Assembly: GCA_026195895.1 (NCBI GenBank) | Contig: JAPHRO010000067.1 | Coordinates: 1 to 54,329 of the forward strand | Direction: 5' to 3' | Length of the DNA stretch: 54,329 nt | From: Gammaproteobacteria bacterium | GTDB taxonomy: Bacteria; Pseudomonadota; Gammaproteobacteria; SZUA-229 | Shown: one piece after another, positions 15,197 through 30,777 of the stretch | Layout of the letters: every line of letters begins with the position of its first letter | Position numbering within the stretch: the stretch's first letter is position 1 | Made by a program: the position numbers and the translations under genes | Notes under the pieces: model-generated | Told to the model about the DNA's origin: nothing | Seen by the model: only the letters and a program-made list of their open reading frames with translations | Databases searched by the model: none

Positions 15197-16579
15197 ATGA
15201 AAACTCTGCTCTGGTTTCAACGTGATTTACGTACTCAGGATAATCCATGCCTGCAGTGGGCTTTACAAAAGGGCCAGCCAGTTATTGCCGTATATATATA
15301 CAGCCCTGATGAAGACGCACCCTGGTCTGAGGGCTCGGCTTCTCGATGGTGGTTACACCATAGCTTGCAGAAATTATCAGCCCAACTGGCAGAATTTAAT
15401 ATCAAATTACATTTTTTTAAAGCAAATTCACGCGATGTACTCAATGGTCTTTTTAAAACTGGGGAGTTTAGTGATATTGCCTGGGGTAACCGAATCGAGC
15501 CTTATCGCAGAAAGTACGAAACACAAATTGAAAAACTCGCGCAGGATAATGGCATACAGGTAAAGCGTTTCAATCATGACCTGTTAAAAACACCAGCAAA
15601 TTTCTTAACCGCCAGCCAGCAAACACCTTACAAAGTATTTACACCATTTTACAAAAAGTTACGCTATGAATTAGATTTAAATTCTGTAACTAATTTACAG
15701 CATAGACAATGCAGTCCCTGCTCACATTTTGATTCATCGCCATTACAAAACTCCTGTGCTTTACAGGAACTGAGCCTGCTTGATAAACATGCATGGCATG
15801 AAAAACTTCATAGATACTGGAATCCTGGTGAAACATCCGCGCTTAATCAGCTAGATCACTTTATAGAGACAGCACTGAATCAGTATACTGAACAACGAGA
15901 TTTTCCTGCGCTTGATGGCACATCCAATTTATCACCGCATCTGCATTTTGGTGAAATTAGTCCAGCACAAATTGTGCAACAGATAATGCCACTAATCCTT
16001 GATTCCAGTAATAAAAATTATACTGAAGCAGAAAGTTTTTTACGCCAGCTAATCTGGCGTGAATTTGCCAGATATATTTTATGGCACTTTCCTCAGACAA
16101 TAGATCAACCCATGAACAGGAAATTCAATGCCGGATTCTGGCATGCTGATAACGCATTATTAAAAACCTGGCAACAGGGTAAAACCGGTATAAAAATCGT
16201 TGACGCTGGTATGAAACAGCTTTGGGAAACAGGTAGTATGCATAATCGTGTCCGTATGCTGGCTGCTTCGCTATTAACAAAAAACATGGGGGCTTCATGG
16301 CAACAGGGTGCCCGCTGGTTCTGGGATACGCTGGTAGATGCTGATCTTGCCAATAACAGTATGGGCTGGCAGTGGGTTGCGGGTTGCGGTGTTGATGCGG
16401 CCCCCTACTTCAGAATATTTAATCCAGAAACTCAGGCCAGTAAATTTGATAAACAGAATAGTTACACAGATAAGTGGTTAAAAGAAAAAAATACCGTCAA
16501 TGAACCCATCATCGATATTAGTTCAAGCCGAAAACAGGCACTTGAACGATACAACACATATATCAGACATTCTGTTTAA
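15197..16579 (+). CDS. phrB: Deoxyribodipyrimidine photolyase (class I CPD)
   Basis: The 460-residue protein begins MKTLLWFQRDLRTQDNPCL, the standard start of the photolyase alpha/beta domain, so ATG 15197 is preferred over the upstream in-frame start. The C-terminal FAD domain has NRVRMLAASLLTKNMG, WFWDTLVDADLANNSMGWQW and PYFRIFNPETQASKFD, including the conserved Trp and Asn residues. It repairs cyclobutane pyrimidine dimers using blue light and FAD. The gene follows the LitR-like regulator by one base and is followed 13 bases later by a CbiX gene, forming a light-controlled operon. Confidence 0.95.
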   Translation: MKTLLWFQRDLRTQDNPCLQWALQKGQPVIAVYIYSPDEDAPWSEGSASRWWLHHSLQKLSAQLAEFNIKLHFFKANSRDVLNGLFKTGEFSDIAWGNRIEPYRRKYETQIEKLAQDNGIQVKRFNHDLLKTPANFLTASQQTPYKVFTPFYKKLRYELDLNSVTNLQHRQCSPCSHFDSSPLQNSCALQELSLLDKHAWHEKLHRYWNPGETSALNQLDHFIETALNQYTEQRDFPALDGTSNLSPHLHFGEISPAQIVQQIMPLILDSSNKNYTEAESFLRQLIWREFARYILWHFPQTIDQPMNRKFNAGFWHADNALLKTWQQGKTGIKIVDAGMKQLWETGSMHNRVRMLAASLLTKNMGASWQQGARWFWDTLVDADLANNSMGWQWVAGCGVDAAPYFRIFNPETQASKFDKQNSYTDKWLKEKNTVNEPIIDISSSRKQALERYNTYIRHSV

Positions 16580-16592
16580 AAGAGGATTAACA

Positions 16593-16967
16593 ATGAAAGC
16601 ACTTGTTCTTGTTGCTCATGGTAGCCGGCGTCAGGCGTCGAATGACGAAGTAAGGGCATTATCAAAAGCGATAGCAATTGAAATGGCTGATGAATACCCG
16701 ATAATTGAAGCCGGTTTTCTAGAACTGGCAGAACCGTTAATACCGGATGCAATTGACTGTTGCGTAAAACAGGGTGCTACTGGTGTCTGTGTCATGCCCT
16801 ATTTCTTGTCCGCCGGGCGTCATGTGCGGGAAGATGTACCAGCAGAAGTTAATAAAGCACGACAAATGCATAATAATATACCCATTGAGGTGCTAGCTCA
16901 TATTGGTGGCGCGCCAATGATGATTGACCTGATTCGCGATACAGTGATGGATAGTAGAGAAAAATGA
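16593..16967 (+). CDS. cbiX: Small CbiX/SirB-type sirohydrochlorin chelatase
   Basis: The 124-residue product starts MKALVLVAHGSRRQASNDEV and has MPYFLSAGRHVREDVP, both hallmark His motifs of the short CbiX family. These proteins insert cobalt (or Fe or Ni) into sirohydrochlorin, working as homodimers. AGAGGA precedes ATG 16593 at seven bases; an upstream in-frame start at 16500 lies inside phrB and is unlikely. Co-transcription with photolyase and a B12-dependent regulator suggests, but does not prove, a link to cobalamin supply; siroheme synthesis is the alternative. Confidence 0.88.
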   Translation: MKALVLVAHGSRRQASNDEVRALSKAIAIEMADEYPIIEAGFLELAEPLIPDAIDCCVKQGATGVCVMPYFLSAGRHVREDVPAEVNKARQMHNNIPIEVLAHIGGAPMMIDLIRDTVMDSREK

Positions 16968-17184: not shown

Positions 17185-17874
17185 CTAAATAAAAAAAGTA
17201 CTGCCGCCCATCAAAATCAGCAAAACTGCACTTGTTTTCTCCAGTCCTGCACGCCAGTCTCTCAGTTGTGACCTTATCTGCTCACCAAAATAAGCAATCC
17301 CCACACCAAAGATGATGGCTGGCATCAGGATCGCTCCAAAGCCGAAACCAAATCCCAGGGTAAGCCCCAGCATGGCACTGGCTGTTGCGGATGAAGCAAG
17401 CATTATTGCGCCCAATGGAGCACAGGGATTCAGGGCCATTCCCAGGCCCATAAAAAACAGGCCGCCCGGTAGTAAGTTTTGCAAACGAAGCTTATCGCCA
17501 AAACGCTTAAAGAATCCAGATGTGGAAGTTGCATGACATTGCTTATGTTGTTTTTTTGCCGTTAAAAAAAGCAGGCCAATTCCGACCATGATGGTTGCAC
17601 TACCTAAAAACATACGCACCCATGAAGCATCTAAACTATCCCCCATTACCTGTCCCAGCATTCCGGACAAAAGGCCAAGAGCGGAGTAGCCACTCATTCT
17701 ACCGAGTGAAAAAGGAACAATTGTTCGCCATGAGTTACGTACACCACCTTCACGGGCAAAAAAAACGGGGCCAAGATAGGGTAAACATGACAGATTGCAG
17801 GGACCAAGACCAAAGATAAGCCCCATGGCAACGGCCAGAGAGAAAGTCATCATTGAAGGATCGACTTGCAGCAT
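17185..17874 (-). CDS. CcdA/DsbD-like polytopic membrane protein
   Basis: The 229-residue protein has about six hydrophobic helices. Helix 1 carries GLGPCNLSCLPYLGP (C26, C30) and a central helix carries GMALNPCAPLG (C151), a paired Cys/Pro arrangement like that of CcdA/DsbD-type thiol-electron transporters and the related TauE/SafE-annotated heavy-metal-associated membrane proteins. A cytoplasmic loop carries KKQHKQCHAT (C113). It starts two bases after the stop of the ATPase gene, so it belongs to the five-gene reductase operon. It may move reducing equivalents across the membrane or help maturation of the complex; transport of a small anion is an alternative. Confidence 0.75.
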   Translation of the reverse strand: MLQVDPSMMTFSLAVAMGLIFGLGPCNLSCLPYLGPVFFAREGGVRNSWRTIVPFSLGRMSGYSALGLLSGMLGQVMGDSLDASWVRMFLGSATIMVGIGLLFLTAKKQHKQCHATSTSGFFKRFGDKLRLQNLLPGGLFFMGLGMALNPCAPLGAIMLASSATASAMLGLTLGFGFGFGAILMPAIIFGVGIAYFGEQIRSQLRDWRAGLEKTSAVLLILMGGSTFFI

Positions 17875-17876
17875 TG

Positions 17877-18686
17877 TTACTCTTCTTCCATCTCATCGTA
17901 ATAAGCTTCAAGCGCCAGAACAGCGGCACCCAGTGCCGTTGTGATCTGGGGATGCTCCGGAATCACCAGTTCTTTTCCAAGCTCATCTTCCATCGCCGCA
18001 ACCAGTCCTTTATTCATTGCAGGACCACCATCAAAGTAGACATTCCCCTCAAGTCCAACACGTTTTGCCAGGCGAACTGTTCGTTTGGCAATAGAATAAT
18101 GAATACCCGCTACGATTTCTTCTTTGTTATGTCCATCGGCAAGCAGGCCGATAATTTCTGATTCTGCGAAGACCACACAAGTACTATTGATAGGAAGCGG
18201 TGCGCCTTTAATGTTAAAGTGATAATCTCCCAGCTCTTCAAGTTCTATCTCAAGATTCATTGCTGTCACATCAAGAAATTTTCCCGTACCGGCTGCACAT
18301 TTATCATTCATGGCAAAGTTGGTTACGGTTCCCATATCATCAATCTGTATTGCCTTGGTATCTTGCCCGCCAATATTAATAATGGTTTTTATATCTCCAT
18401 GCTGCCGTCCTGCCTCAATAGCACCGATAGCATTGGCAGTGATTTCACTAACAGATTCATCTGATTCTTTCATCAGCTTCCTGCCATAACCGGTCGATAT
18501 CATATAGGAAAGATCATCCATGCTGATGTTTATTTCAGAGAGTGTTGTCTCAAGTGCTGTAATGGCATTTTTTCTAAAGTGGCTGCCCGTCGGAGTTACT
18601 CTGGATGCAAGGATCTTTTTTTCTTCATCTATAAGAGCAATTTTTATTGCGGTCGAACCGATATCGATTCCTGCAAAATACTTCAT
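17877..18686 (-). CDS. ASKHA-family ATPase activator of a dehydratase-type reductase (HgdC/BadF-like)
   Basis: The 269-residue protein shows the HgdC fold and motifs: FAGIDIGSTAIKIALID, STGYGR, NIGGQDTKAI, then NDKCAAGTGKFLDVTAMN (C130) and NSTCVVFAESEIIGLLADG (C170), the two Cys that hold a [4Fe-4S] cluster between subunits of a homodimer, and FDGGPAMNKGL. Such proteins use ATP to send one very low-potential electron to a partner (2-hydroxyacyl-CoA dehydratase, benzoyl-CoA reductase or double-cubane protein). It overlaps the partner gene upstream by four bases. The stop lies two bases before the CcdA-like gene. Confidence 0.92.
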   Translation of the reverse strand: MKYFAGIDIGSTAIKIALIDEEKKILASRVTPTGSHFRKNAITALETTLSEINISMDDLSYMISTGYGRKLMKESDESVSEITANAIGAIEAGRQHGDIKTIINIGGQDTKAIQIDDMGTVTNFAMNDKCAAGTGKFLDVTAMNLEIELEELGDYHFNIKGAPLPINSTCVVFAESEIIGLLADGHNKEEIVAGIHYSIAKRTVRLAKRVGLEGNVYFDGGPAMNKGLVAAMEDELGKELVIPEHPQITTALGAAVLALEAYYDEMEEE

Positions 18687-19963
18687 TTTCTGTTTCTTCT
18701 TCGCTTGGCTTTAAGTGATTCGATAAATGCCTCAATGCGCGTGGAAAGCTGCCCCATGTCATCAGGACTATAGTCAGACTCGATAAAGAGTACAGGTATG
18801 TCTTCATCATTAAGAGCTTTGGTAATACTGGCCTGTTCCATGGAATAAACCTGGCAACCTGAAAAAGACTGATAGACCACTCCCTCTGCTGCAAACTCTT
18901 TTGCCATATGCAGTAACTTACGTTTACGATCATCATTTTTGGTAAAAATAGGACAGGTACAGGGCTTAAGGTAGTTATCAGCAATACCATCAACCATCGC
19001 ATTAAGATGCCATTCATCTGAAGAGACCATATCATAGAGCATACGATTGGATGAGCAGGTCTCATCGCCTACAATAACCCCACCGGATTCTTCGATAAGC
19101 ATAGGTATTTTCAAATTGGGGAAAATAGCAGGCGATCCGGTAAAGAGCAATCGTGGGGCCCGTCTCTGTGCTGCAGAATATTTTTCTTCTACACGCTTTT
19201 CAAGTTCTACGTTAAGCCTGTTAACCGCTTCAGTCCAGCTTTCAATTTCATCGAAAAAATAAGCATTGGTGACCATGAAAACATCTTTGCCAAGAATAAC
19301 TGAATTCTTCTGTTTACGTAATTCGTATAATTTCCTATATGCTTTTTGTGCCCTGGATATTTTGGCCATGGCCTCTTTCAAAGAGCTTTTGCTAAGTTTT
19401 TTTCCCGTAATCTGTTTAAGTTCACCAGCAAATTTTCTTATAGAGCGCCGCCAGTAAATACGTGCCTCTTCACTCTCTTTAACTGGAGGTACTTCCATAT
19501 CATAAACAGAGTAACCCATGTCGGCAATCATACTTCCTGCCTTGCGCTTCTGATCGCAGGTAGCAGGCAGTACAATATCATCCAGGCGATTAATAAACGG
19601 TAGCGTTGATTTACTATCAAGCATACCGAGCGTAGCCTTGACAAGCGAACACGATTTAGCCGGCATAAAGTCCGCACCATTATGGTCATCAGTGTAAAAA
19701 CCATTGCATAGCCTTACAGGAACTGCACCCGAGGCATAAATAAGTTCTTCGGGAACCTGTACACACATAGTGCCGACAATTTTCTTATTCTCATGCAGCG
19801 ATACACCTTCACAATAAACCTTTTTATAAAGATCATAAAAATAGTTCATTGCTTCCGGGTTATCAGGAAAGTCATCTGTAATTGAGCGGAGCATTCTGGT
19901 TGCTTCACTTGCCTGATGGGTAAGATTAAAAGGATGTTTTATCTCATCTTTATGATTAGCCAT
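18683..19963 (-). CDS. Double-cubane / 2-hydroxyacyl-CoA dehydratase-like iron-sulfur protein
   Basis: The 426-residue protein matches the HgdB/FldBC/BcrBC superfamily: GTMCVQVPEELIYASGAVPV near the N-terminus and DIPVLFIESDYSPDDMGQLS followed by TRIEAFIE at the C-terminus. Cysteines at 67, 86, 105, 136, 303, 335, 337 and 370 are candidates for cluster ligands, more than the three expected for one dehydratase [4Fe-4S] cluster. Only one such subunit is encoded, with its own ATPase and no CoA-transferase, acyl-CoA or benzoyl-CoA genes nearby. This favours the double-cubane cluster protein group (an [8Fe-9S] cluster reducing small molecules) over a dehydratase. Substrate unknown. Confidence 0.82.
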   Translation of the reverse strand: MANHKDEIKHPFNLTHQASEATRMLRSITDDFPDNPEAMNYFYDLYKKVYCEGVSLHENKKIVGTMCVQVPEELIYASGAVPVRLCNGFYTDDHNGADFMPAKSCSLVKATLGMLDSKSTLPFINRLDDIVLPATCDQKRKAGSMIADMGYSVYDMEVPPVKESEEARIYWRRSIRKFAGELKQITGKKLSKSSLKEAMAKISRAQKAYRKLYELRKQKNSVILGKDVFMVTNAYFFDEIESWTEAVNRLNVELEKRVEEKYSAAQRRAPRLLFTGSPAIFPNLKIPMLIEESGGVIVGDETCSSNRMLYDMVSSDEWHLNAMVDGIADNYLKPCTCPIFTKNDDRKRKLLHMAKEFAAEGVVYQSFSGCQVYSMEQASITKALNDEDIPVLFIESDYSPDDMGQLSTRIEAFIESLKAKRRRNRK

Positions 19964-20954
19964 TTTTATTTTCCTTTTCCATCCGTTTGATGTAGCCCTC
20001 TACTGTTGCTTCAAAAACTGGTATACCCATAAATTTCACTTCGAGAGCACCTTCTTCAGGACAGGCAGAAACGCATTTTAAACACATGATACAGTCATCC
20101 TGTAATATGTTTTTACTTTCAACATCATCGGCAATCTCCTTAATCTGCATATCACAGACGGTGTAGCAATCACCACATTTAGTGCATTTAGAACCATCTT
20201 TCTTTAACTTGAGGAAAGCCAGTTTTGAAAGCATGAAGTGCAGAGCACTCATGGGACAGAAAAAACAGAAAAATCGTTTTTTAAAAAAAGAGCCCGCAAG
20301 AAAAATACCGGTTATCAACATACCAAGTGTTGTAAGTATCATTTTTGTTTTTGAAGAGAAATCTATTGTCAGTTGTGAAAAGTCACCAGTAAATATCGGG
20401 ATAAGAGTTCTACCCGGACATATCATGCAAAAAGGGGTGCTCATATCATGTGAAAAGAAACCTGCACCAATGCCCATCGGTATAACAACCATCAGTACAA
20501 GCAGAATATATTTGATCTTTTTAAGATGTTTGAACTGTTCCCAGGTATAGCTTGCGTAAGGAATTCCCAGGCGGCTGCGAAGTGATGTAATCCAGTCCTG
20601 AATTGTACCTAATGGACAGGCATAGCCACACCACCCCTTGTTAAGCACCAGAAACCAGAGTACAAAATAAGAAAAACCAATTAGTACAGCAATACCCGCC
20701 ATACTGAACAGTGTCGATGATGATAGTGCCAGTTGGTGCTGCAGCGGTATAAGATAGCATGTCGCTCCCTGCCCTTCGCTATTAAAGCCGCATGCAAAGG
20801 TAGGAATATTCTGACCAAGGTTTATAGACAGATAACCGCCATAGACAAATAACAGGAAAAAGAATATCTGTAACCAGAATCTGAAACGCCTTAAATCCCC
20901 ATTATTGATTTTCTTTCGGATGTTCTTAATCAAGTCGTTGCTCCTGATAAACAT
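19956..20954 (-). CDS. NapH-like membrane polyferredoxin
   Basis: Of 332 residues, the first ~245 form several membrane helices with CxxxCP-type motifs GWCGYACPLG (C109, C113), FCMICPGRTL (C176, C179) and FFCFFCPMSA (C230, C233). The C-terminal part has two classical [4Fe-4S] ferredoxin motifs, CTKCGDCYTVC (C257-C267) and CIMCLKCVSACP (C288-C298). This is the layout of NapH/NosR/CcoG-type proteins that carry electrons between quinol and soluble partners. It overlaps both neighbours (8 and 29 bases), so tight coupling with the double-cubane-like protein is likely; it would be the natural electron source for the ATPase-reductase. Confidence 0.9.
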   Translation of the reverse strand: MFIRSNDLIKNIRKKINNGDLRRFRFWLQIFFFLLFVYGGYLSINLGQNIPTFACGFNSEGQGATCYLIPLQHQLALSSSTLFSMAGIAVLIGFSYFVLWFLVLNKGWCGYACPLGTIQDWITSLRSRLGIPYASYTWEQFKHLKKIKYILLVLMVVIPMGIGAGFFSHDMSTPFCMICPGRTLIPIFTGDFSQLTIDFSSKTKMILTTLGMLITGIFLAGSFFKKRFFCFFCPMSALHFMLSKLAFLKLKKDGSKCTKCGDCYTVCDMQIKEIADDVESKNILQDDCIMCLKCVSACPEEGALEVKFMGIPVFEATVEGYIKRMEKENKNG

Positions 20955-21927
20955 TCAGACGTCTTCTGCGATAGAGATACACACTCAGGAATGTTGCAAA
21001 GAAAGCAAACAGACCAATTAGCAAGCCGTAGAGATAAGACTGATAATCTTTTGTTGATGGGTAATAACTTCCCGATGCTGTCGCTTTGTAGCTGATCGTA
21101 TCGTATGTCATATCATCTAATGTGCCTGATTGCGCCTGAACATATTCGACAATAACCAGAAAATTTTCCCGTGTACGTCGTTTGAACTCATGCCACTCTG
21201 GGTAGTAGTCACGGATCATCTCAAATGTTACATGACCGTTTTCATCTGTTTTAAGTGTTTTTTTCCAGCCTTTTTGCGTAACCAATGTTACTGAAGCATC
21301 CGCTAATGGCTTACCCTTTTGTAATATCCGGTAGCTTACGATATCGCCTGAAGTCACATGGGTATGGAATCTTTCTCTGGGCATGCGTTCACGTATAATA
21401 TCGACAGGAGCTGCTTCATAAGCGTTAGGAGGCATCTTCTCTTTGATATTGTCATGTCCTTCTCGACAGCTATGGTTAAGAACCTCTTTTTTTGCAGTGA
21501 TGCTGTACAAGGTATTATCTTCAACAAAACGCTTAATCATAAAAAGATTGTAAAATCCTTCATCGGGCATTTTAAAAATTGCCTCAGCATAGCTTTTGTT
21601 TTTGAAAGCAACAGTTTTCAGATTCTTTTTTGCATCAAGCAAAATCAGCGGCGCATCAGCTTCTTTGACATAAGTGGATGTAAGAGGATCTTCACCCTCT
21701 CGTAGCCAGAGAAGTTTTGACGTGCCATCACGTCTACTTTTTAGCACTAAGCCATCATGAGATGAGCTCAATTTTTTTGCAAACTCCCTGTCTGGAGGCG
21801 TATCTGAAAACCAGTAAGTTTGAGACGCCAATAGTTCGCTATTTAGTAGTAGCCCAAAAGTGAATATCGCAACTATTTTATAATACTTCGAAAATAACAG
21901 CATGCTAGAGTTCCTGATTTCTGTCAT
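20926..21927 (-). CDS. DUF4198-like periplasmic protein with C-terminal membrane anchor
   Basis: The 333-residue protein has an N-terminal hydrophobic signal (about residues 14-34, FTFGLLLNSELLAS) and one membrane helix near the end (LLIGLFAFFATFLSVYLY) followed by a basic tail, so most of it faces the periplasm. Residues ~195-265 read ISYRILQKGKPLADASVTLV-like into TDENGHVTFEMIRDYYPEW, a prealbumin/Ig-like module as in DUF4198 proteins, often tied to metal handling. It is the first gene of the five-gene operon and overlaps the polyferredoxin gene by 29 bases. It may present a ligand or metal to the membrane module; its exact role is not known. Confidence 0.7.
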   Translation of the reverse strand: MTEIRNSSMLLFSKYYKIVAIFTFGLLLNSELLASQTYWFSDTPPDREFAKKLSSSHDGLVLKSRRDGTSKLLWLREGEDPLTSTYVKEADAPLILLDAKKNLKTVAFKNKSYAEAIFKMPDEGFYNLFMIKRFVEDNTLYSITAKKEVLNHSCREGHDNIKEKMPPNAYEAAPVDIIRERMPRERFHTHVTSGDIVSYRILQKGKPLADASVTLVTQKGWKKTLKTDENGHVTFEMIRDYYPEWHEFKRRTRENFLVIVEYVQAQSGTLDDMTYDTISYKATASGSYYPSTKDYQSYLYGLLIGLFAFFATFLSVYLYRRRRLNVYQEQRLD

Positions 21928-22436
21928 TATGGATACTTCTGCTGAAAAATATGTAATTTATTAAGATTCACTAAAACATTCTTTTTTTGTATAAGACCAT
22001 TAACTAAATTAAATTTACTGGTGTCGCTATGAGAATATTAATTCTTCATATACGACAATAGATAATTTCATATCTATTTAAAAATGAATGAGATTCTATC
22101 GCTACGAAACAATTTATTAATAAAATATAAATACGACCTAATCACTCACGTATCCATCACTTTTATTTGCCAGAAACTTATACATACCAGGCAATGATCA
22201 ATTGATAATATAGTAATTATTTTATATTTATATTTATATTGCGCAATGAGTTAAATAACCCATTTTAGTGTGTGATATAACACAATACAGAAGGAAAGAA
22301 GGAGAAGATGAAGAAGCGGCAGGAAGCTCTGATATTAATGTCAGCTATATCGCTGAATTAATGAGCATCAACAGATTAGTGACCCTGCCTTTTGGGGTGA
22401 TGGCAAGCTGACACCCGAGCAGGTAGAGATTGTCGT
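21928..22436. other. AT-rich intergenic region with a possible gene remnant
   Basis: Both flanking genes read leftward, so this region carries the promoter of the reductase operon and the end of the glycolate operon. At about 22276-22440 the plus strand shows coding-like pieces in two frames: EDEEAAGSSDINVSYIAEL, then after a one-base shift NEHQQISDPAFWGDGKLTPE followed by QVEIVV and a stop. It may be the tail of a lost gene; no family is recognised. The rest is very AT-rich and has nothing identifiable. Confidence 0.4.
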
Positions 22437-23654
22437 TTAAACAAGGTTTTTATCTATCAATTCCAGCCAGTGTTTTACCGGTATCTGTGCTTTGCTCGCT
22501 ATATGCATCTGACAGCCAATATTAGCAGTGGCAATCAGATCAGGCTGTTCGCTTTGCAAAGCTGATAATTTATTGTTCAGTAATTGCTGGGATAATCTGG
22601 GCTGTAAGATGGAATAAGTACCTGCCGAGCCGCAGCATAAGTGTGAGTCCTCCACATGAGTGAGCGTGAAGCCCGCATTCTGTAGAATCTGTTCCACCAC
22701 TCCGTTAATTTTTTGCCCATGTTGTAAGGTACAGGGACTATGAAATGCCACTTTGTCTGTCGATTGTTTTGTAGTGACTGCAGCAAGATTTTCCCCGTGC
22801 AATATCTCACTGATGTCTTTGGCCAGCGCGCTCACCTGTCTGGCCTTGTCCGCATAATGGGTATCGTGTTTCAGCAGCTCAGCATAGTCTTTCACCACGG
22901 CGCCACAACCGCTGGCAGTGACCACGATCGCTTCCACGCCCTGTTCAATAACTGGCCACCAGGCATCAATATTGCGACGCATGAAGTCCCGTCCTTCTTC
23001 AGGCGCCGATAAATGATGACTCACGGCACCACAACAACCTGCCTCTGGTGCGGCAATTAATTCAATATCCAGTTTCTGTAAAATACGTGTAGCCGCCTGA
23101 TTGGTTTGCGGTGTCACCACCGATTGCACACAACCCTGCAACACCAGCATCTTACGAGCTTTCGAGGCGACTACGATATTACTGGCTGACTGTGGCAATG
23201 GCAGTTTGCGTTTTAAAGTCGCGGGCAACACCGGGCGAAATAACAGACCCAGTTTATACAACATGGCAAAGCGTTGTGGATAAGGCACAATTTTACGTAA
23301 CAGTGTTCGAGACATACGTTGCAGCAAATTACGCGGCACCTGCTGATCAACAATCTCACGACCTATCTCGACCAGCCGGCCATAACGCACACCGGAAGGA
23401 CAGGTGGTTTCACAGGAACAACAGCTCAGGCAACGATCCAGATGAGTTTGAGTTCGGCTGCTGAGTTCATTTCCTTCGAGCACCTGCTTGATAAGATAAA
23501 TTCGACCACGCGGCCCATCGAGTTCATCGCCCAGTAACTGGTAAGTCGGACAGGTTGCCGTGCAAAAACCACAATGCACACAGGACCTTAAAATCGACTC
23601 CGCGTCTTCGATATCTGGATTAGTTAAAAATTTATGACTGATCGTGGTCTGCAT
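22437..23654 (-). CDS. glcF: Glycolate oxidase iron-sulfur subunit
   Basis: The 405-residue protein has two N-terminal [4Fe-4S] motifs (CVHCGFCTATCPTYQ and CLSCCSCETTCPSG), then two CCG domains with GCCGAVSHH and CCGSAGTYS. This is the standard GlcF layout and length. It passes electrons from the flavin subunits GlcD/GlcE towards the quinone pool, at the inner membrane. It begins six bases after the glcE stop and is the last gene of the six-gene operon. Confidence 0.94.
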   Translation of the reverse strand: MQTTISHKFLTNPDIEDAESILRSCVHCGFCTATCPTYQLLGDELDGPRGRIYLIKQVLEGNELSSRTQTHLDRCLSCCSCETTCPSGVRYGRLVEIGREIVDQQVPRNLLQRMSRTLLRKIVPYPQRFAMLYKLGLLFRPVLPATLKRKLPLPQSASNIVVASKARKMLVLQGCVQSVVTPQTNQAATRILQKLDIELIAAPEAGCCGAVSHHLSAPEEGRDFMRRNIDAWWPVIEQGVEAIVVTASGCGAVVKDYAELLKHDTHYADKARQVSALAKDISEILHGENLAAVTTKQSTDKVAFHSPCTLQHGQKINGVVEQILQNAGFTLTHVEDSHLCCGSAGTYSILQPRLSQQLLNNKLSALQSEQPDLIATANIGCQMHIASKAQIPVKHWLELIDKNLV

Positions 23655-23660
23655 GGGGGA

Positions 23661-24749
23661 TTACAGCTCCGGGTAAAGTTTGCCGGGGTTTAAAATATTA
23701 TTCGGATCGAACGCCTGTTTTAAATTTTTATGGATGCGCATTAATCCTGGCGTTAAGGGCTGAAAAATAGTCGATTGTTCGCCATCCCGGAACACACCGG
23801 CAGGTCGAAATAAACTTGCATGACCATCAAGCTCAGCGACAGCCGCCTGAATGATTTCCGCAGGCACATCACTTTTTAGCCAACGTAAAGCGCCGCCCCA
23901 CTCATACAGAAAATCATCTTCATCAGTATTTTCTACAATTACAGACTCGACGTCCGATGCCAGGGACAATCGCCACAAATTTTTTTCAGTATTAAAATAT
24001 TCCAGTCGCTGTTCTTTTAGATCCTGCCAGTATTGATCTGCATTCTCCATAGCATCACCACCTATATGATTGACTGCGGCAATAACGGCTTTACCTGCAC
24101 CTGAAAGACGAACTCGCAGCATCGAATCGTGAAAACTGGTAGCGGATACGGGCAAAGGCGTTTGCGACCAGCTATGCATTTTGTCGATAGCTTCAGCAGA
24201 GGAGCAATGAAACAGCTGCGTGGCTTCTGTTTCAGCTTTTGGTAACACTTTTAATGACACTTCCAGTAACACTCCAAGTGATCCCATGGCGCCCGCCATC
24301 AAACGAGAAACATCATAACCGGCAACATTTTTCATCACTTCGCCACCAAAAGTCAGTATCTCACCCTTACCATTAATAATTTTGCAGCCCAAAAGATAAT
24401 CTCGTGCTGCACCGGCGTAAGCACGACGCGGCCCGGATAAATTGCATGCTATAATGCCGCCGAGGGTTGCGTGTTCGCTAAAGGCTGGCGGTTCAAACGG
24501 CAACATCTGGCCTTCATCATCAAGCAATGTTTCAATTTCTTTTAACGGTGTACCTGCACGAACAGTAATCACCAACTCTGTTGGCTCATAATTAAGTACG
24601 CCACGATGCTCGGCAACAGACAATGTTTCAGCTGAAACGGGACAGCCATAAAAGGCTTTGCTATTGCCACCAACAATACGTAGTGCAAGCTTTTCTTCAA
24701 AGGCGCGCTGTACCTGTTGCTGTAATTGCAGACTTATATCAGCGTTCAT
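23661..24749 (-). CDS. glcE: Glycolate oxidase FAD-binding subunit GlcE
   Basis: The 362-residue protein has a PCMH-type FAD domain with LVITVRAGTPLKEIETLLDD, ATLGGIIACNLSGPRRAYAG and MKNVAGYDVSRLMAGAMGSL, and a short C-terminal domain ending NILNPGKLYPEL. This shorter form of the GlcD fold identifies GlcE. It acts with GlcD and GlcF in oxidising glycolate (or a similar 2-hydroxy acid) to the 2-oxo acid. It is 44 bases from glcD and six from glcF in one operon. Confidence 0.94.
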   Translation of the reverse strand: MNADISLQLQQQVQRAFEEKLALRIVGGNSKAFYGCPVSAETLSVAEHRGVLNYEPTELVITVRAGTPLKEIETLLDDEGQMLPFEPPAFSEHATLGGIIACNLSGPRRAYAGAARDYLLGCKIINGKGEILTFGGEVMKNVAGYDVSRLMAGAMGSLGVLLEVSLKVLPKAETEATQLFHCSSAEAIDKMHSWSQTPLPVSATSFHDSMLRVRLSGAGKAVIAAVNHIGGDAMENADQYWQDLKEQRLEYFNTEKNLWRLSLASDVESVIVENTDEDDFLYEWGGALRWLKSDVPAEIIQAAVAELDGHASLFRPAGVFRDGEQSTIFQPLTPGLMRIHKNLKQAFDPNNILNPGKLYPEL

Positions 24750-24793
24750 GTTTGTTTCCAGAATAATTACTTTTCATTTTAGAGACAGGCCTG

Positions 24794-26278
24794 TTAAAAC
24801 CTTTCCAGTTCAGGGAATGGCAATTCACCTTTATGTACATGCATGGCACCAAACTCGGCGCAGCGATGTAATGTCGGTACCGCTTTACCGGGGTTCAACA
24901 AACCCAGTGGATCAAATGCTGCTTTCACTGCGTGAAACTGAGTCAGTTCAAGAGAGTTAAACTGCACACACATCTGGTTGATCTTTTCTATCCCCACACC
25001 GTGCTCACCGGTAATCGTGCCACCCACTTCGACGCATAACTCGAGAATTTTTCCACCAAATTCTTCGGTTCGCTCCAGCTCTCCTTCAATATTTGCATCA
25101 TATAAAATCAATGGATGTAAGTTGCCATCACCGGCGTGAAAAACATTGGCCACGGGCAAATCATATTCTTTAGATAAGTCAGCCATGGTCTTCAGCACCC
25201 GGGGTAATTGTTTGCGGGGAATGGTACCATCCATGCAATAATAATCAGGTGATAAACGCCCCACTGCTGGAAACGCGGCTTTGCGACCTTTCCAGAATGT
25301 AAGTCGCTCCGCTTCATCTTTTGCTGTGCGCACTTCTGTCGCACCATTGTTTTGCAAAACTTCGCGTACTTTCAATACATGTTCTGACACCTCTTCAGTA
25401 GTGCCATCCAGTTCACAAAGTAAAATAGCTTCAGCATCCAGGGGATAACCGGCATGCACAAAATCTTCGGCCGCACTGATCGCCAGCTTATCCATCATTT
25501 CCAGACCGGCTGGAATAATACCGGCGGCAATAATATTACCTACTGCTTCGCCCGCTTTCACCACATCATCAAAGGCTGCAAGTAAAACCTGAGCACTTTC
25601 CGGCCTGGGTAATAATTTAACCGTGACCTCAACAATCACGCCGAGCATACCTTCGGAGCCGGTCATCAATGCCAGTAAATCATAACCTGCACTATCGAGA
25701 CCGCTACCGCCAATCGTCAGTAGTTCGCCTTCAATAGTAATAATTTTTAACTGTTGAATATTGTGCACCGTTAAACCGTATTTCAGGCAATGCACACCAC
25801 CGGAATTTTCCGCTACATTACCACCGATGGTGCAGGCAATTTGAGACGAAGGGTCCGGTGCGTAATACAGACCGAACTGATCGACCGCCTGTGAAATAGC
25901 CAGGTTACGCACCCCGGGTTGAACGCGAGCAATACGACGTTTTGCATCGATATTAATAATATCTTTAAACTTTGCGAGACTTAACAAAACACCATTGTCT
26001 AATGGTAATGCGCCACCTGATAGACCAGTTCCTGCACCACGCGCAACAACAGGCACCTTACGTTCATAACACAAACGAAGAATTGATTGAACTTGATCAA
26101 CGGTATCTGGCAATACAACGATCATTGGCAAATGCCGATACGCAGATAGCCCATCACATTCATAAGGATGTAAATCTTCGGCCTGGTGTAATACGGCATC
26201 TTCAGGCAGGAACTTTAGTAATTCCTTTAGCAATGATACTTTGTTGCCTGATTGCATATTATTATCATTCATATTCAT
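24794..26278 (-). CDS. glcD: Glycolate oxidase FAD subunit GlcD
   Basis: At 494 residues it has the GlcD length and motifs: PVVARGAGTGLSGGALPLDN, YYAPDPSSQIACTIGGNVAE, GSEGMLGVIVEVTVKLLPRP and GTITGEHGVGIEK. It is the main catalytic flavoprotein that oxidises glycolate or D-lactate-like 2-hydroxy acids. The start codon overlaps the aldolase stop by one base (TAATG), indicating coupling. In this operon the partner genes suggest the true substrate could be a longer 2-hydroxy acid such as a tetronate; this is an inference. Confidence 0.95.
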   Translation of the reverse strand: MNMNDNNMQSGNKVSLLKELLKFLPEDAVLHQAEDLHPYECDGLSAYRHLPMIVVLPDTVDQVQSILRLCYERKVPVVARGAGTGLSGGALPLDNGVLLSLAKFKDIINIDAKRRIARVQPGVRNLAISQAVDQFGLYYAPDPSSQIACTIGGNVAENSGGVHCLKYGLTVHNIQQLKIITIEGELLTIGGSGLDSAGYDLLALMTGSEGMLGVIVEVTVKLLPRPESAQVLLAAFDDVVKAGEAVGNIIAAGIIPAGLEMMDKLAISAAEDFVHAGYPLDAEAILLCELDGTTEEVSEHVLKVREVLQNNGATEVRTAKDEAERLTFWKGRKAAFPAVGRLSPDYYCMDGTIPRKQLPRVLKTMADLSKEYDLPVANVFHAGDGNLHPLILYDANIEGELERTEEFGGKILELCVEVGGTITGEHGVGIEKINQMCVQFNSLELTQFHAVKAAFDPLGLLNPGKAVPTLHRCAEFGAMHVHKGELPFPELERF

Positions 26279-27153
26279 TACACATTATTCTGCCTGTTTA
26301 TATTTTTAACAGGTAAGTTTGCATAAAGCTCTATTTGTTCAGTAATAAGCTTATGCCACTGTTTTTTCATCAGCTGTTTAAACTGATAAAAATCATTACT
26401 TTGCGAAGCGTAGCTCCTGACTTCATCCATGGCCACCTGTAACAATCCTGAAAAATAATTTATTTTTCGTATACCGTTAGTAACAGCATTTTGTATCGCT
26501 GCATCTGAAACACCCGTTGCCCCATGCATAACCAGAGGAACATCTATCATGGATGAAATTTCTTTAATAACATCAAAGTTAATATGCGGCTCCGAATGAT
26601 AAATACCATGAGCAGTACCAACCGCGATCGCTAAAGCATCGACATTAGTTGCAGCAACAAATTGCTGTGCTTCTATCGGGTCGGTATAAGGAATATGTTC
26701 TGGACTATCTCGTTGAGTATCAGCAACGCCTTCTTCTCCCGCGATTCCACCTATCTCCCCTTCAACACTTGCATTATAACGATGACTGATTTCAACAACT
26801 TTTTGAGTGATGTCAATATTTTCCTCGAACGGCAATAAGGAACCATCAATCATGATACTACTAAAACCCAGATCGAGTGCCTGTTTAATCATGTCAAATT
26901 GCTGCGGGGCAGCATGGTCCAGGTGCAGCGCCACCGGTATATCAGTTGATTCGATGGCTTTTAATATAGAGGGAACCAATAAAGGTGCGCGAATGTCATC
27001 AAAGTGACGACTCGCAATACCTATTATTGCAGGCGTTTGTAATGCTTCTGCACAATCAATAATGCTAAACGCCATATCGAGGTCAAGAATGTTAAATGAA
27101 CCCGTTGCAGAAGCAGAGTCATTAGTTAATAACTGGTTAAGATTTTTTTTCAT
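26278..27153 (-). CDS. Class II (zinc) ketose-bisphosphate aldolase family protein
   Basis: The 291-residue protein belongs to the FbaA/GatY/KbaY fold: PVALHLDHAAP with the catalytic Asp and Zn ligand, SSIMIDGSLLPFEENI, ASVEGEIGGIAGEE, AIAVGTAHGIY and PLVMHGATGVSD with the remaining Zn His. It cleaves or forms a C-C bond to dihydroxyacetone phosphate or a similar unit. Since the next gene upstream encodes a four-carbon acid sugar kinase, a phosphorylated C4 acid or its keto form is a likely substrate rather than fructose bisphosphate. It lies nine bases from the kinase gene and overlaps glcD. Confidence 0.9.
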   Translation of the reverse strand: MKKNLNQLLTNDSASATGSFNILDLDMAFSIIDCAEALQTPAIIGIASRHFDDIRAPLLVPSILKAIESTDIPVALHLDHAAPQQFDMIKQALDLGFSSIMIDGSLLPFEENIDITQKVVEISHRYNASVEGEIGGIAGEEGVADTQRDSPEHIPYTDPIEAQQFVAATNVDALAIAVGTAHGIYHSEPHINFDVIKEISSMIDVPLVMHGATGVSDAAIQNAVTNGIRKINYFSGLLQVAMDEVRSYASQSNDFYQFKQLMKKQWHKLITEQIELYANLPVKNINRQNNV

Positions 27154-27162
27154 AACATGACC

Positions 27163-28479
27163 TTAGGCAATAAGTCGCTTGTAAGCGGTTGTTATGCCAG
27201 TCTCATCACCGACGTTTCCAGGAAAAATAACCACTGGCATATCAGGATAACGCGGATGATTGTGCGGACAGCGCACCACTGAACAGCCTGCAAGAATTTG
27301 CCCAACCACCCGCGAAGTACGTAAGGCCAGACCATCACTCAATACATCATTCGATGTAATGCCGCCCTTGCTTATCAAAAAACCGGTGCTAACAGGTAGA
27401 TTTCTTACCACGTCCATCAAAAAAGCAGATACCTGCTCACCAAAGGCAAGGCGTGTTTGCTGATCATCAAATTGTAATTCTGTGCGGCTGGTATAAATGA
27501 CCGGTGTGATATTGTTTGCATGACAATCTTCTGCATTAGCAATAATGTCAGCGAGTAACTGATCACGTTGTCCTGCAATTTTTGCAACATCAATTTCAAT
27601 GCCATGTATACCGTCCTGTTGCAACAGATGCATTAACTGTTGCGTGGTTTTGGAAACATGTGAGCCCACAATAACTGCACCGGCTCTGTCATCACGCACA
27701 TACTCACGCATTTTTTCTGCTGCGATGGGTTGTGGTGGCAATTGTGCCAATGCGGTTAACAGGCTTGCGGCACTGCGGAACAGGAAACGTTTCCCTTCTG
27801 CTGCCGCCTGCATTAACTGTGAGCAGAAATGATTAAGATCATCCTGTGTCTCGCCATCCACTACACAACATTGATTATCTTTCAGCGTTAATAAACGCGA
27901 CAAAGAATCAGCGCGCACATCCTGCACAACAAAACGCTCAACCTGTGAAGCCTTAATGCGCCCGCCAGTTTTTTCTTCGACATAATCTGGCAGGTAGCTG
28001 TGTGAATAACCGAATACAGAGTCACGAGCAAACTCTGTTTCATGCACGGGCACCGGCTTACCATCCATCATTAGATAATGGATACTATCGATGGTAATAC
28101 GTCCACCTTCAAAAAATGCGGGGACCATAAAATGCGCATCAAATGGCCCCAGCTCTTCGGCGATGATATCCGTTTCTACCGGATAGTGGCCACGTAAAGT
28201 TGAATCCGATCGACTGACCAGCAATGGATTTATGTTATCCCCCTCTGCAGCCAGCTGTTCCAGTGCCTTGCGTAGATTAACGCAAACTTCACGGGTTAAA
28301 TCAGCCGCATCAGTTGCACTCATACCCCGTGTATTGGTAAGTACAAAAAACAACGGCGCTGCATCGGTTAAACCCTGCTTTAATGTTTCCACATCCCAAC
28401 GAGTCAACAACAGACAGCTATGTACCGTCTGTGAACCTGTTGGATCATCATCAAGCACAATGATTTTTGTTTTACTCAT
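27163..28479 (-). CDS. Four-carbon acid sugar kinase (DUF1537/OtnK-DtnK family)
   Basis: The 438-residue protein has the family N-terminus VLDDDPTGSQTVHSCLLLTR, the SRSDSTLRGHYPVETD motif, and the C-terminal nucleotide-binding part with ISKGGITSNDVL, LALRTSRVVGQILAGCSVVR and VVIFPGNVGDETGI. Characterised members phosphorylate D-threonate, D-erythronate or 3-oxo-tetronate at C4. No PdxA2, OtnC or OtnI homologue is in the operon; instead a class II aldolase follows at nine bases, so the downstream chemistry differs from the best-known pathways. A 32-bp palindrome lies in the gap ahead of this gene. Confidence 0.92.
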   Translation of the reverse strand: MSKTKIIVLDDDPTGSQTVHSCLLLTRWDVETLKQGLTDAAPLFFVLTNTRGMSATDAADLTREVCVNLRKALEQLAAEGDNINPLLVSRSDSTLRGHYPVETDIIAEELGPFDAHFMVPAFFEGGRITIDSIHYLMMDGKPVPVHETEFARDSVFGYSHSYLPDYVEEKTGGRIKASQVERFVVQDVRADSLSRLLTLKDNQCCVVDGETQDDLNHFCSQLMQAAAEGKRFLFRSAASLLTALAQLPPQPIAAEKMREYVRDDRAGAVIVGSHVSKTTQQLMHLLQQDGIHGIEIDVAKIAGQRDQLLADIIANAEDCHANNITPVIYTSRTELQFDDQQTRLAFGEQVSAFLMDVVRNLPVSTGFLISKGGITSNDVLSDGLALRTSRVVGQILAGCSVVRCPHNHPRYPDMPVVIFPGNVGDETGITTAYKRLIA

Positions 28480-28494
28480 TAAAAACCCTCCGTT

Positions 28495-28526
28495 GATTTC
28501 ACTGTTACTTTAGTAACAGTGAAATC
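28495..28526. promoter_or_regulatory. Perfect 32-bp palindrome between transketolase-like and kinase genes
   Basis: GATTTCACTGTTACT (28495-28509), TT, then its exact 15-base reverse complement (28512-28526). Its outer half-sites TTTCAC/GTGAAA are the same as those in the IclR promoter region at 30830-30959, but the spacing differs. It may be an internal operator, an RNA hairpin that uncouples expression within the operon, or both. Confidence 0.75.
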
Positions 28527-28551
28527 ACCCGGTATAATTATGCCGGTTTAA

Positions 28552-30777
28552 TTATGCAGCAGATTTATTTGCCGAAAAAAAACCATTGATAGAGGCCAGC
28601 ATTGCATCGGCAGTAATGCCATTAAATGCCATGATTTCTGCAGGTGTCGCCGTCGTTTCACCACGTTTCCAGCAGAAAGTATCGCGTTTTGGTGCACGTG
28701 TACGAAGTAATACAGGCTCCAGTGCGGCACTCGGGCCACCACTCACCGCCAGTAAGGCATCACCATCAAACAATGCGTTAAACTGGTTATCATCCATAAA
28801 TTTATTGTCTGGTTGCGACACTGTGTCCCAGGCAATATCAGACGGACGATACAGGCGGCGCGGATTAACGACGGCAACAATGCGTACCTTGTAACCTTCA
28901 CTTTCCAGTTTATCTTTTGCTTCAAAAACTGGCAGGAAGATCATGTCTCCGGTTACCGCAAACACCACCGTGCCTTTACTACCCGACTCGGACTCGTAAA
29001 TAGTCGCGGCACCTGCTTCCATCACCTGACGTGATTCTTCAATCGTCATGTATACAGGTAAGGGACTTTTCGACGCAATAATTACCATGCTCTTGTTATA
29101 ACTGGCCGTGGCATATTCATAAGCTGCCTGTATGCTATTTGCATCACAGGGAAACAGCGGATATGAATTTCCATTACGCATCATCGCGGAGAAATAGTTT
29201 TCAATTTCCGGCCGTTGATGGGTCCAGCCATTACGACCCTGCTCTAAGGCACCGGCGGTAAACATACAAACAGTCGACGGTGTTTTACGACGTAACTCAG
29301 CCATAGCCTGAGCAACCGTTTGCATAATCGGCCAGCCATTGATCGCGAAAGATTCATACGACAACCAGATAGAACGTGAACCAAACAATGCCAGACCTGC
29401 CGCAAAACCGGCACAGGCATCTTCATTCAATGGCTCATACACCTGACCGTCAGGTTGCTGGTTATAGAGCGAATCCTGAGTTGGATGACGAATTTTCAAT
29501 GCATCGTTAATATTTTTCATTGCCGAGGCTTCGTTACCATCCGCATTGGTTACTACATAACGCGCATCCGATTTACCCACCTGAGCAACCAGTTCGCCCA
29601 TAGCAGTGGAAGGTACGGCCTTATCACCTTTAGCGAACTCATTCATCTTCAGCTCAGGTAACGGGGTAAATTCCAGTTCACCTTCTGTTACCACGGTTTT
29701 CGCAGCTGGACCACCACCGGCACGGTATAAATTATCACGCACCAGTTGCCAGGCTTCAGTCGGCAATGCGCGACGCTTCAAACCTTCAATGATATGTGGC
29801 TGATCCAGTGTATCGGCCGGATATAAATTGTGTGACTTGGCACCAACTGTATGCACACCGGTACCTTTTAACTGCTTAATAATGAAAGCGGTCAACTTGC
29901 CACCCATGGCTGATTTTGCAGCCGCATCAACACCCTGTAACACTGCTTTGGTAAACGCCAGTCGCTGTGCCAAAGAAAAATAACTGCTGTCGACATAGGC
30001 ACCTTGCTGATCACTGTCATCAAAGTCTTTGGCATCAATCAAAACCACTTCTTCAAAGCCATGACCTGTCCAGTAATCGATCATTTGCTGATTATCATGC
30101 AGAGACACCATAGAATGGTGTTCCTGCGAATAACCATTCCAGATCAAACAGGGTAAAAAATTGGTCACTTCCGGGTAGGCGGTGTGGAAGTGCATCATCG
30201 AATTCAATACATAGGGCTCGCCCATGCCGCCATCACCGATGGTCACCGGAAATAATTTATCTCGATGCAGATAAGCACCCGCCATGGCAAAGTGCTGTCC
30301 CTGCCCCAGTGGACCCGCTGGCGCTAACAAACCTGGAATCGCACCTGACAGATGCCCCAGCAGACCGTCCTGTTCACGGAAGCGCTGCATCATGTCATCC
30401 ATGTTATAAATGCCCATGTCTTCCAGCGAGCTGTCGAGGAACATAGAAGAATAAAAGCCGGGGGCGTGATGCCCTACCTCGGTCACAATATTGGTATGCC
30501 CAAGCATCATCAGTGAGGCATGGACTTCGGCACTTGAAGCAAAGCCACCTGGATGACCACTTCCCTTAGCACCCGTCACCTGAAGCGTCAGATATCGCAA
30601 TGCATCGGCCGCCAGTAAGGTCTGATAAACACTGTCGTCGTCAGCACTGTTAGCTATGGCGCTCTGGCCTTCAGCAATGACTGCCTGAGCAGCATGCTTG
30701 TCGAAATCAGGCCACTTCTCGCCGAAGTGCTGAATACCCTGACAAAAATCTGGAATATTTGAATTGTTGCTACTCAT
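28552..30777 (-). CDS. Transketolase/phosphoketolase-like thiamine-diphosphate enzyme
   Basis: The 741-residue protein has the transketolase N-terminal pattern (AKGSGHPGGFASSAEVHASL, PAGPLGQGQHFAMAGAYLHR) and ThDP motif GDGGMGEPYVLNSM. It departs from ordinary transketolase in the middle and at the C-terminus, where FMDDNQFNALFDGDA and RGETTATPAEIMAFNGI recall phosphoketolases. It therefore probably transfers or cleaves a two-carbon ketol unit, but the substrate is not evident. It is the first gene of the operon, preceded by a promoter with IclR-type palindromes. The final residues NKSAA suggest no extra domain. Confidence 0.85.
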   Translation of the reverse strand: MSSNNSNIPDFCQGIQHFGEKWPDFDKHAAQAVIAEGQSAIANSADDDSVYQTLLAADALRYLTLQVTGAKGSGHPGGFASSAEVHASLMMLGHTNIVTEVGHHAPGFYSSMFLDSSLEDMGIYNMDDMMQRFREQDGLLGHLSGAIPGLLAPAGPLGQGQHFAMAGAYLHRDKLFPVTIGDGGMGEPYVLNSMMHFHTAYPEVTNFLPCLIWNGYSQEHHSMVSLHDNQQMIDYWTGHGFEEVVLIDAKDFDDSDQQGAYVDSSYFSLAQRLAFTKAVLQGVDAAAKSAMGGKLTAFIIKQLKGTGVHTVGAKSHNLYPADTLDQPHIIEGLKRRALPTEAWQLVRDNLYRAGGGPAAKTVVTEGELEFTPLPELKMNEFAKGDKAVPSTAMGELVAQVGKSDARYVVTNADGNEASAMKNINDALKIRHPTQDSLYNQQPDGQVYEPLNEDACAGFAAGLALFGSRSIWLSYESFAINGWPIMQTVAQAMAELRRKTPSTVCMFTAGALEQGRNGWTHQRPEIENYFSAMMRNGNSYPLFPCDANSIQAAYEYATASYNKSMVIIASKSPLPVYMTIEESRQVMEAGAATIYESESGSKGTVVFAVTGDMIFLPVFEAKDKLESEGYKVRIVAVVNPRRLYRPSDIAWDTVSQPDNKFMDDNQFNALFDGDALLAVSGGPSAALEPVLLRTRAPKRDTFCWKRGETTATPAEIMAFNGITADAMLASINGFFSANKSAA

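Follow-up and report, generated by a model that had tools for sequence, protein, structure and literature searches.

A conserved operon joins a double-cubane protein and its ATPase to a membrane polyferredoxin and may serve outward electron transfer to imported metal chelates

What does a double-cubane protein do when its gene is fixed beside that of a membrane polyferredoxin, and in which direction do the electrons run? Few relatives of nitrogenase-type chemistry are as simple as the double-cubane proteins, most of which have no known substrate. The question is raised by a five-gene operon of a gammaproteobacterium of the SZUA-229 lineage (GenBank assembly GCA_026195895.1, contig JAPHRO010000067.1, positions 1 to 54,329; this whole stretch of 54,329 nucleotides is called the window). 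All five open reading frames were found on the minus strand between 17185 and 21927, overlapping or abutting (spacings of -29, -8, -4 and +2 bases) in the order described by an earlier note on this DNA: a DUF4198-like periplasmic protein, a NapH-like polyferredoxin, a double-cubane protein, an HgdC-type ATPase and a CcdA-like membrane protein (genes 1 to 5; Table 1). That note had proposed a reductase fed by quinol or from the periplasm. Our preferred reading, to which we give a probability of roughly 0.4, runs the other way: an ATP-boosted flow of electrons would pass outward through a membrane wire and reduce an imported metal chelate, the ligand being recycled afterwards.

The product of gene 3 scored above the cut-off of the double-cubane model NF040772 (360.2 bits, cut-off 350), matched HGD-D of Pfam (E = 1.2e-96) and, in phmmer searches against solved structures, matched 7yyl (1.8e-71) and 6eno (4.8e-71), both of which we take to be the Carboxydothermus double-cubane protein. 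It fell far under every cut-off for CoA dehydratases and benzoyl-CoA reductases, with 89.8 of 700 bits for HadC and 101.7 of 453.8 bits for BzdN. Such dehydratases and reductases need two paralogous subunits, and the D-component gene is present in a single copy in the operon and in the whole genome. The low scores and the lone D-component together rule out a 2-hydroxyacyl-CoA dehydratase or benzoyl-CoA reductase. The test for firm clustering with the CoA-dependent dehydratases did not go against the earlier proposal. The operon held no CoA-pathway genes, nor did those genes of the window that were scanned. Among the cysteines named beforehand, C67, C105, C136, C303, C337 and C370 were invariant in 19 aligned proteins and C86 nearly so, but C335 was not conserved. 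By analogy, the six invariant residues would be the ligands of the two cubanes. Gene 4, which overlaps gene 3 by 4 bases, encodes an activase of the acyl-CoA-dehydratase type (TIGR00241, 237 bits, cut-off 125.4; BcrAD_BadFG, 176.6 bits), and no second activase scored above the cut-off when the genome was searched with PF01869.

Gene 2 encodes a Fer4_5 domain followed by a dicluster ferredoxin domain (Fer4_10). It has the broad NapH-like features, namely Fer4_5 motifs, four transmembrane (TM) helices and a C-terminal 2[4Fe-4S] domain, and misses the cut-offs of the NapH/MauN models (NF007013, 78.4 of 234 bits; TIGR02163, 78.1 of 213 bits). Lysine and arginine residues number 8, 7 and 17 in the cytosolic segments against 0 and 3 in the periplasmic loops. 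The 16 cysteines make four sets of four: the ferredoxin domain holds eight, the CxxxCP/CxxCP motifs on the cytosolic face contribute another four, and C55, C66, C176 and C179 lie outside. Of 22 NapH-like relatives, with identities as low as 26%, 21 retain this last set, which has no counterpart in E. coli NapH and YccM. Because four of the 16 cysteines are predicted to be periplasmic and are absent from these two proteins, gene 2 likely encodes an iron-sulfur (Fe-S) wire spanning the membrane. Their counts and predicted topology would fit four [4Fe-4S] sites in line, one of them periplasmic; the four outer cysteines could instead form redox disulfides. The one relative without the four extra cysteines is a bathyarchaeal protein (locus L024, 1579-2568) whose gene adjoins that of a double-cubane protein; it may reflect a state predating the gain of the periplasmic site, or a loss.

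Genome contigs were scanned for double-cubane loci, which yielded 80 loci. About 17 other loci, spread over several phyla, show the gene order of the window, which is the same in the closest sixteen (41-77% identity), which belong to Gammaproteobacteria, Alphaproteobacteria, Magnetococcales, Nitrospirota, Krumholzibacteriota and unplaced metagenome-assembled genomes (MAGs). The same gene set is carried by a plasmid of Sulfurovum mangrovi (Campylobacterota; locus L092), with the CcdA-like gene moved upstream. Operon members are absent only where a contig ends, this rearrangement being the sole exception; some alignments leave out the rows of the Sulfurovum plasmid. A test for non-co-occurrence came out negative: the operon is genuine, its five genes are conserved as a unit beyond chance, and they go together far more firmly than the sequence alone could have told. 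The genes for the NapH-like protein, the double-cubane protein and the ATPase are also found together in distant loci of Firestonebacteria (L023), Bathyarchaeota (L024) and Diapherotrites (L031), and this core set is conserved from bacteria to archaea.

Near the window organism, the double-cubane protein is scarce: 398 genomes from its phylum yielded 3 with the protein, one of them the window genome, and 96 relatives gave one other match, at 21% identity. In a quick-search tree of 82 double-cubane proteins, drawn from loci picked by similarity to the query and with long branches for L023, L024, L092 and L031, a single branch with 100% support in the Shimodaira-Hasegawa-like approximate likelihood ratio test (SH-aLRT) had on one side all 21 proteins with a NapH-like neighbor and none of the other 61. 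The NapH-linked group takes in two archaea. The initial description of the membrane polyferredoxin as a dedicated one was supported. As a separate observation, the operons of an Acidobacteriota-labelled MAG contig (L008) and a Sedimenticola MAG contig (L010) are 92% identical at the nucleotide level, a likeness that points to recent transfer or to mis-binning.

What do the two other proteins add? Gene 1 missed the gathering score of the DUF4198 Pfam model (23.6 bits against 34). Its predicted structure, with a predicted local distance difference test score (pLDDT) of 76, matched Zcp (Z 18.8), structures of which were solved with zinc, copper or cobalt, and the Ni-bound DUF4198 protein 9gcb (Z 15.4), the next unrelated row having a Z of 6.3. 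The protein has an N-terminal signal or anchor, and a hydropathy peak at residues 297-320 marks a single TM helix near the C-terminus; it is thus membrane-anchored and has the fold of the metal-binding DUF4198 family. The likeness to DUF4198 had been recognized in the note, but the metal-binding nature of the family was left unused. Binding of Ni, Zn and Co is described for one DUF4198 protein, and genes of the family adjoin those of TonB receptors (PMC12537917); in 1500 clusters thought to serve the reduction of periplasmic iron, DUF4198 proteins occur together with PepSY electron carriers (PMC8238504), and a PepSY/DUF4198-type locus is important to Caulobacter under chelation stress (PMC12004947). 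Direct evidence that the domain works with membrane Fe-S electron transfer comes from the Sulfurovum plasmid, where the DUF4198-like domain is fused to a second membrane polyferredoxin in one 722 aa protein (L092:12840-15008), which also has a His-rich linker and several TM helices. His/Met-rich stretches with a copper-binding look were seen by eye in the DUF proteins of L014 and L017, and copper would suit them as the metal. Beside two of the distant NapH/double-cubane modules lie secreted proteins (L023:5316-6759 and L031:5042-5941) whose first residues, close to the signal-peptide end, show motifs such as GHACHDPWRP or AHA; they could be N-terminal-His metal proteins. Gene 5 scored 77.1 bits with DsbD_2 (PF13386, cut-off 24.9). 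C26, C30, C113 and C151 were invariant in 17 aligned relatives, and C26, C30 and C151 match the CcdA/DsbD_2 cysteine pattern in TM1 and TM4 (helix numbers by eye). These residues are in keeping with a CcdA-like redox function; the protein might instead be a transporter.

In other genomes the operon has recurrent neighbors. The gene immediately upstream encodes a TonB receptor in ten of the loci (L011, L012, L014-L018, L020, L021 and L074), and a split one is found near the Sulfurovum operon. Ten of the twelve operon-linked receptors tested formed a clade (100/99) apart from BtuB, CirA, FepA, PqqU and FhuA; a single clade of all twelve was neither shown nor rejected (approximately unbiased test, p-AU 0.147). 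Close relatives of the L008 receptor are present in the L009 and L010 genomes. The operon-linked receptors resemble siderophore and vitamin receptors, and we make no call on their specificity because the closest solved structures are receptors for pyrroloquinoline quinone (PQQ), catecholates, metal-pseudopaline, vitamin B12 and ferrichrome. Positions 172-2799 of the window hold a YfiR/HmsC-like (DUF4154) gene and, next to it, that of a TonB-dependent receptor; this receptor falls outside the operon-linked clade.

Exporters also neighbor the operon, of the MacB type in L014, L020 and L022 and of the resistance-nodulation-division (RND) type in L008, L009, L021 and L092 (some assigned by eye). 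Heavy-metal efflux was rejected for them: the three RND permeases tested scored higher with multidrug than with CusA models, and fell below the multidrug cut-offs too. Such pumps would have a place in a detoxification system resembling ArsEFG, where the ATPase/double-cubane pair would reduce a toxic organic compound (e.g. a nitro-aromatic) and the DsbD_2 protein or an RND/MacAB pump would expel the product. ArsE belongs to the BadF family and ArsF to the HgdB family, so that the roxarsone system ArsEFG has in common with the operon an ATPase plus HgdB-type pair and a DsbD_2-like third protein; gene 5 matches the ArsG permease model NF040495 weakly (30.8 bits), and the exporters near the operon in relatives are multidrug-like RND and MacB proteins. 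However, the ArsG cut-off of 200 bits is far from reached, no ars genes lie nearby, and neither a membrane wire nor a receptor is known for ArsEFG. No ArsG above the cut-off was found in 369 gammaproteobacterial genomes searched. A dedicated TonB receptor implies active uptake, not defense. We hold detoxification to be very improbable.

How might these parts work together? RnfB was detected in the window genome with 270.7 bits, which makes a source of reduced ferredoxin likely. In the outward reading, reduced ferredoxin would feed the ATPase, and ATP hydrolysis would push low-potential electrons into the double-cubane protein; transfer from ferredoxin through the ATPase to the double-cubane protein is established for the family. 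The electrons would exit via the polyferredoxin to the periplasm, where a metal chelate (or a similar scarce compound), brought in by the dedicated TonB receptor, would be reduced. The DUF4198 protein would handle the metal, the CcdA-like protein would supply thiol electrons or pass the metal onward, and the RND or MacAB exporters would recycle the emptied ligand. An analogous scheme operates for pyoverdine, the iron of which is freed by periplasmic reduction before the ligand is recycled. Outward flow would explain the periplasmic cysteines, the DUF4198 protein, the receptor and the exporters together; the direction of flow, the metal and the substrate are what we infer. In a narrower form of the proposal, the operon would be an ATP-powered electron exporter, in which a nitrogenase-like ATPase and the double-cubane protein send electrons below the potential of ferredoxin through a four-cluster wire into the periplasm, to reduce imported metal chelates beyond the reach of ordinary flavin or NADH reductases, such as ferric catecholates (near -750 mV). 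We regard this form as somewhat unlikely, and no system is known to us in which an HgdC-type ATPase uses ATP hydrolysis to send electrons from the cytosol to the outside.

With the direction reversed, the polyferredoxin and the CcdA-like protein would supply electrons and the double-cubane/ATPase pair would reduce a small molecule in the cytosol. Characterized double-cubane proteins (relatives of 6eno and 7yyl) themselves reduce small molecules, and the retention of the six conserved cysteines makes it likely that catalysis is intact. NapH proteins are thought to draw electrons from quinol in some cases (PMC8238504). Inward feed nevertheless leaves the extra periplasmic cysteines and the DUF4198 protein unexplained, and no inner-membrane substrate importer is present in the cluster. 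It is also thermodynamically awkward, because menaquinol is far too positive as a donor for an HgdC-type ATPase absent other energy input. The context, with its metal-binding DUF4198 fold, dedicated TonB receptor and exporters of organic molecules, fits outward flow at least as well, and a quinol- or periplasm-fed direction appears unlikely.

Outward electrons might alternatively serve a reductive activase, in which the ATP-dependent pair and the membrane wire would assemble or recharge a metalloenzyme or a metal cofactor located beyond the cytosol; the activation complex of methyl-coenzyme M reductase has a comparable task inside methanogens. That complex holds double-cubane-type clusters, polyferredoxins of the NosR/CcoG type serve copper enzymes, and the copper-like stretches of the L014 and L017 proteins would fit such a role. 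Activation of methyl-coenzyme M reductase by an ATP-driven complex is described (PMC12176620). Yet the neighborhoods showed no recurring gene for a shared target enzyme, and the receptor and exporters would go unexplained; we hold an activase to be quite improbable.

Several observations weigh against outward reduction of an imported chelate. Firstly, the window operon has no adjacent TonB receptor or exporter, the window genome holds no close copy of the partner receptor elsewhere (best match 23% identity), and the cluster has no inner-membrane iron importer. Secondly, the archaeal members have no outer membrane, and the bathyarchaeal polyferredoxin has no outer cysteines. Thirdly, the metal ligand of known DUF4198 proteins, a His that is N-terminal after signal cleavage in 79% of the family (PMC12537917), was not recognized where the mature product of gene 1 probably starts, nor in most relatives (by eye, with no signal-peptide predictor). 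The AlphaFold model of gene 2 (pLDDT 74.9, and below 50 at residues 44-66) is too weak for testing the fourth cluster site, and a fold search with it gave no significant match. As for iron in particular, Fur-box-like sites upstream of the operons tested scored no better than shuffled sequence, so that Fur regulation was dropped, and no Rfam match to a riboswitch, which a cobalamin reading would call for, was obtained in the window or ten loci; neither a Fur box nor a riboswitch supports it.

A literature search of open-licence papers found no described system of this combination, in line with the note. The known double-cubane protein/ATPase pairs (6eno, 7yyl, NF040772, E. coli YjiM) share with the operon a common sequence family, the six cysteines and an adjacent activase. 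They differ in being soluble, and none of their loci seen here encodes a DUF4198 protein, a TonB receptor or a membrane polyferredoxin; the NapH-linked proteins form a clade of their own. NapH, NosR, PceC and CcoG share with gene 2 the four TM helices, two cytosolic CxxxCP/CxxCP motifs and the C-terminal 2[4Fe-4S] domain; gene 2 differs in being far under the NapH cut-offs, in its four extra periplasmic cysteines and in its tie to an ATP-driven double-cubane protein, and it comes without an FMN-binding domain or NapG. The PepSY/DUF2271/DUF4198 ferric-reduction clusters have in common a secreted DUF4198 protein, a membrane electron carrier and, in some, a TonB receptor (PMC8238504, PMC12004947). 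In the operon, a polyferredoxin and an ATP-driven double-cubane protein stand in place of PepSY and flavin, and a Pfam scan of the five proteins found neither a PepSY membrane protein nor an FMN-binding DUF2271. FetMP-FetABCDEF similarly surrounds metal uptake with a membrane redox-type protein, ABC permeases and thiol redox proteins (PMC10783030), but the operon has different redox proteins, no FetM or FetP and no Fur box.

Table 1. Features of the operon in the window
Feature	Position	Strand	Basis
Gene 1, DUF4198-fold periplasmic protein, 333 aa	20926-21927	minus	Predicted model, fold match, hydropathy
Gene 2, NapH-like membrane polyferredoxin, 332 aa, 16 Cys	19956-20954	minus	Fer4_5 and Fer4_10, TM/charge pattern, 22-relative alignment
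C55...C66 codons of gene 2, predicted periplasmic loop TM1-2 (no K/R)	20757-20792	minus	Alignment, topology
C176-x-x-C179 (CxxCP) codons of gene 2, predicted periplasmic loop TM3-4	20418-20429	minus	Alignment, topology
Gene 3, double-cubane-cluster reductase family protein, 426 aa	18683-19963	minus	NF040772, phmmer, invariant Cys
Gene 4, HgdC/BadF-type activase ATPase, 269 aa	17877-18686	minus	TIGR00241, BcrAD_BadFG
Gene 5, CcdA/DsbD_2-type membrane protein	17185-17874	minus	PF13386, alignment of 17 relatives
Presumed operon promoter region, AT-rich (31% GC)	21928-22436	minus	GC content

Two other parts of the window were noted. A CbiX-type sirohydrochlorin chelatase gene (16500-16967) is convergent with the operon, with no sign of a functional link. 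Positions 22437-30777 look like an uncharacterized sugar-acid pathway: they hold a run of glycolate-oxidase-like genes, a class II aldolase, a 741 aa protein distantly homologous to phosphoketolase/transketolase (107 bits, cut-off 777) and one resembling D-threonate kinase (69.5 bits, cut-off 450).

In the NapH-linked clade, double-cubane proteins are connected with the membrane, with a protein from a periplasmic family that binds metals and with an outer-membrane receptor of their own, and the clade offers a testable set of partners and a substrate class for these proteins. If outward flow is true, it would be, to our knowledge, the first case of such ATP-boosted electrons leaving the cytosol, and it could explain how very stable metal chelates are opened by anaerobic or microaerobic bacteria with the ligand left intact.

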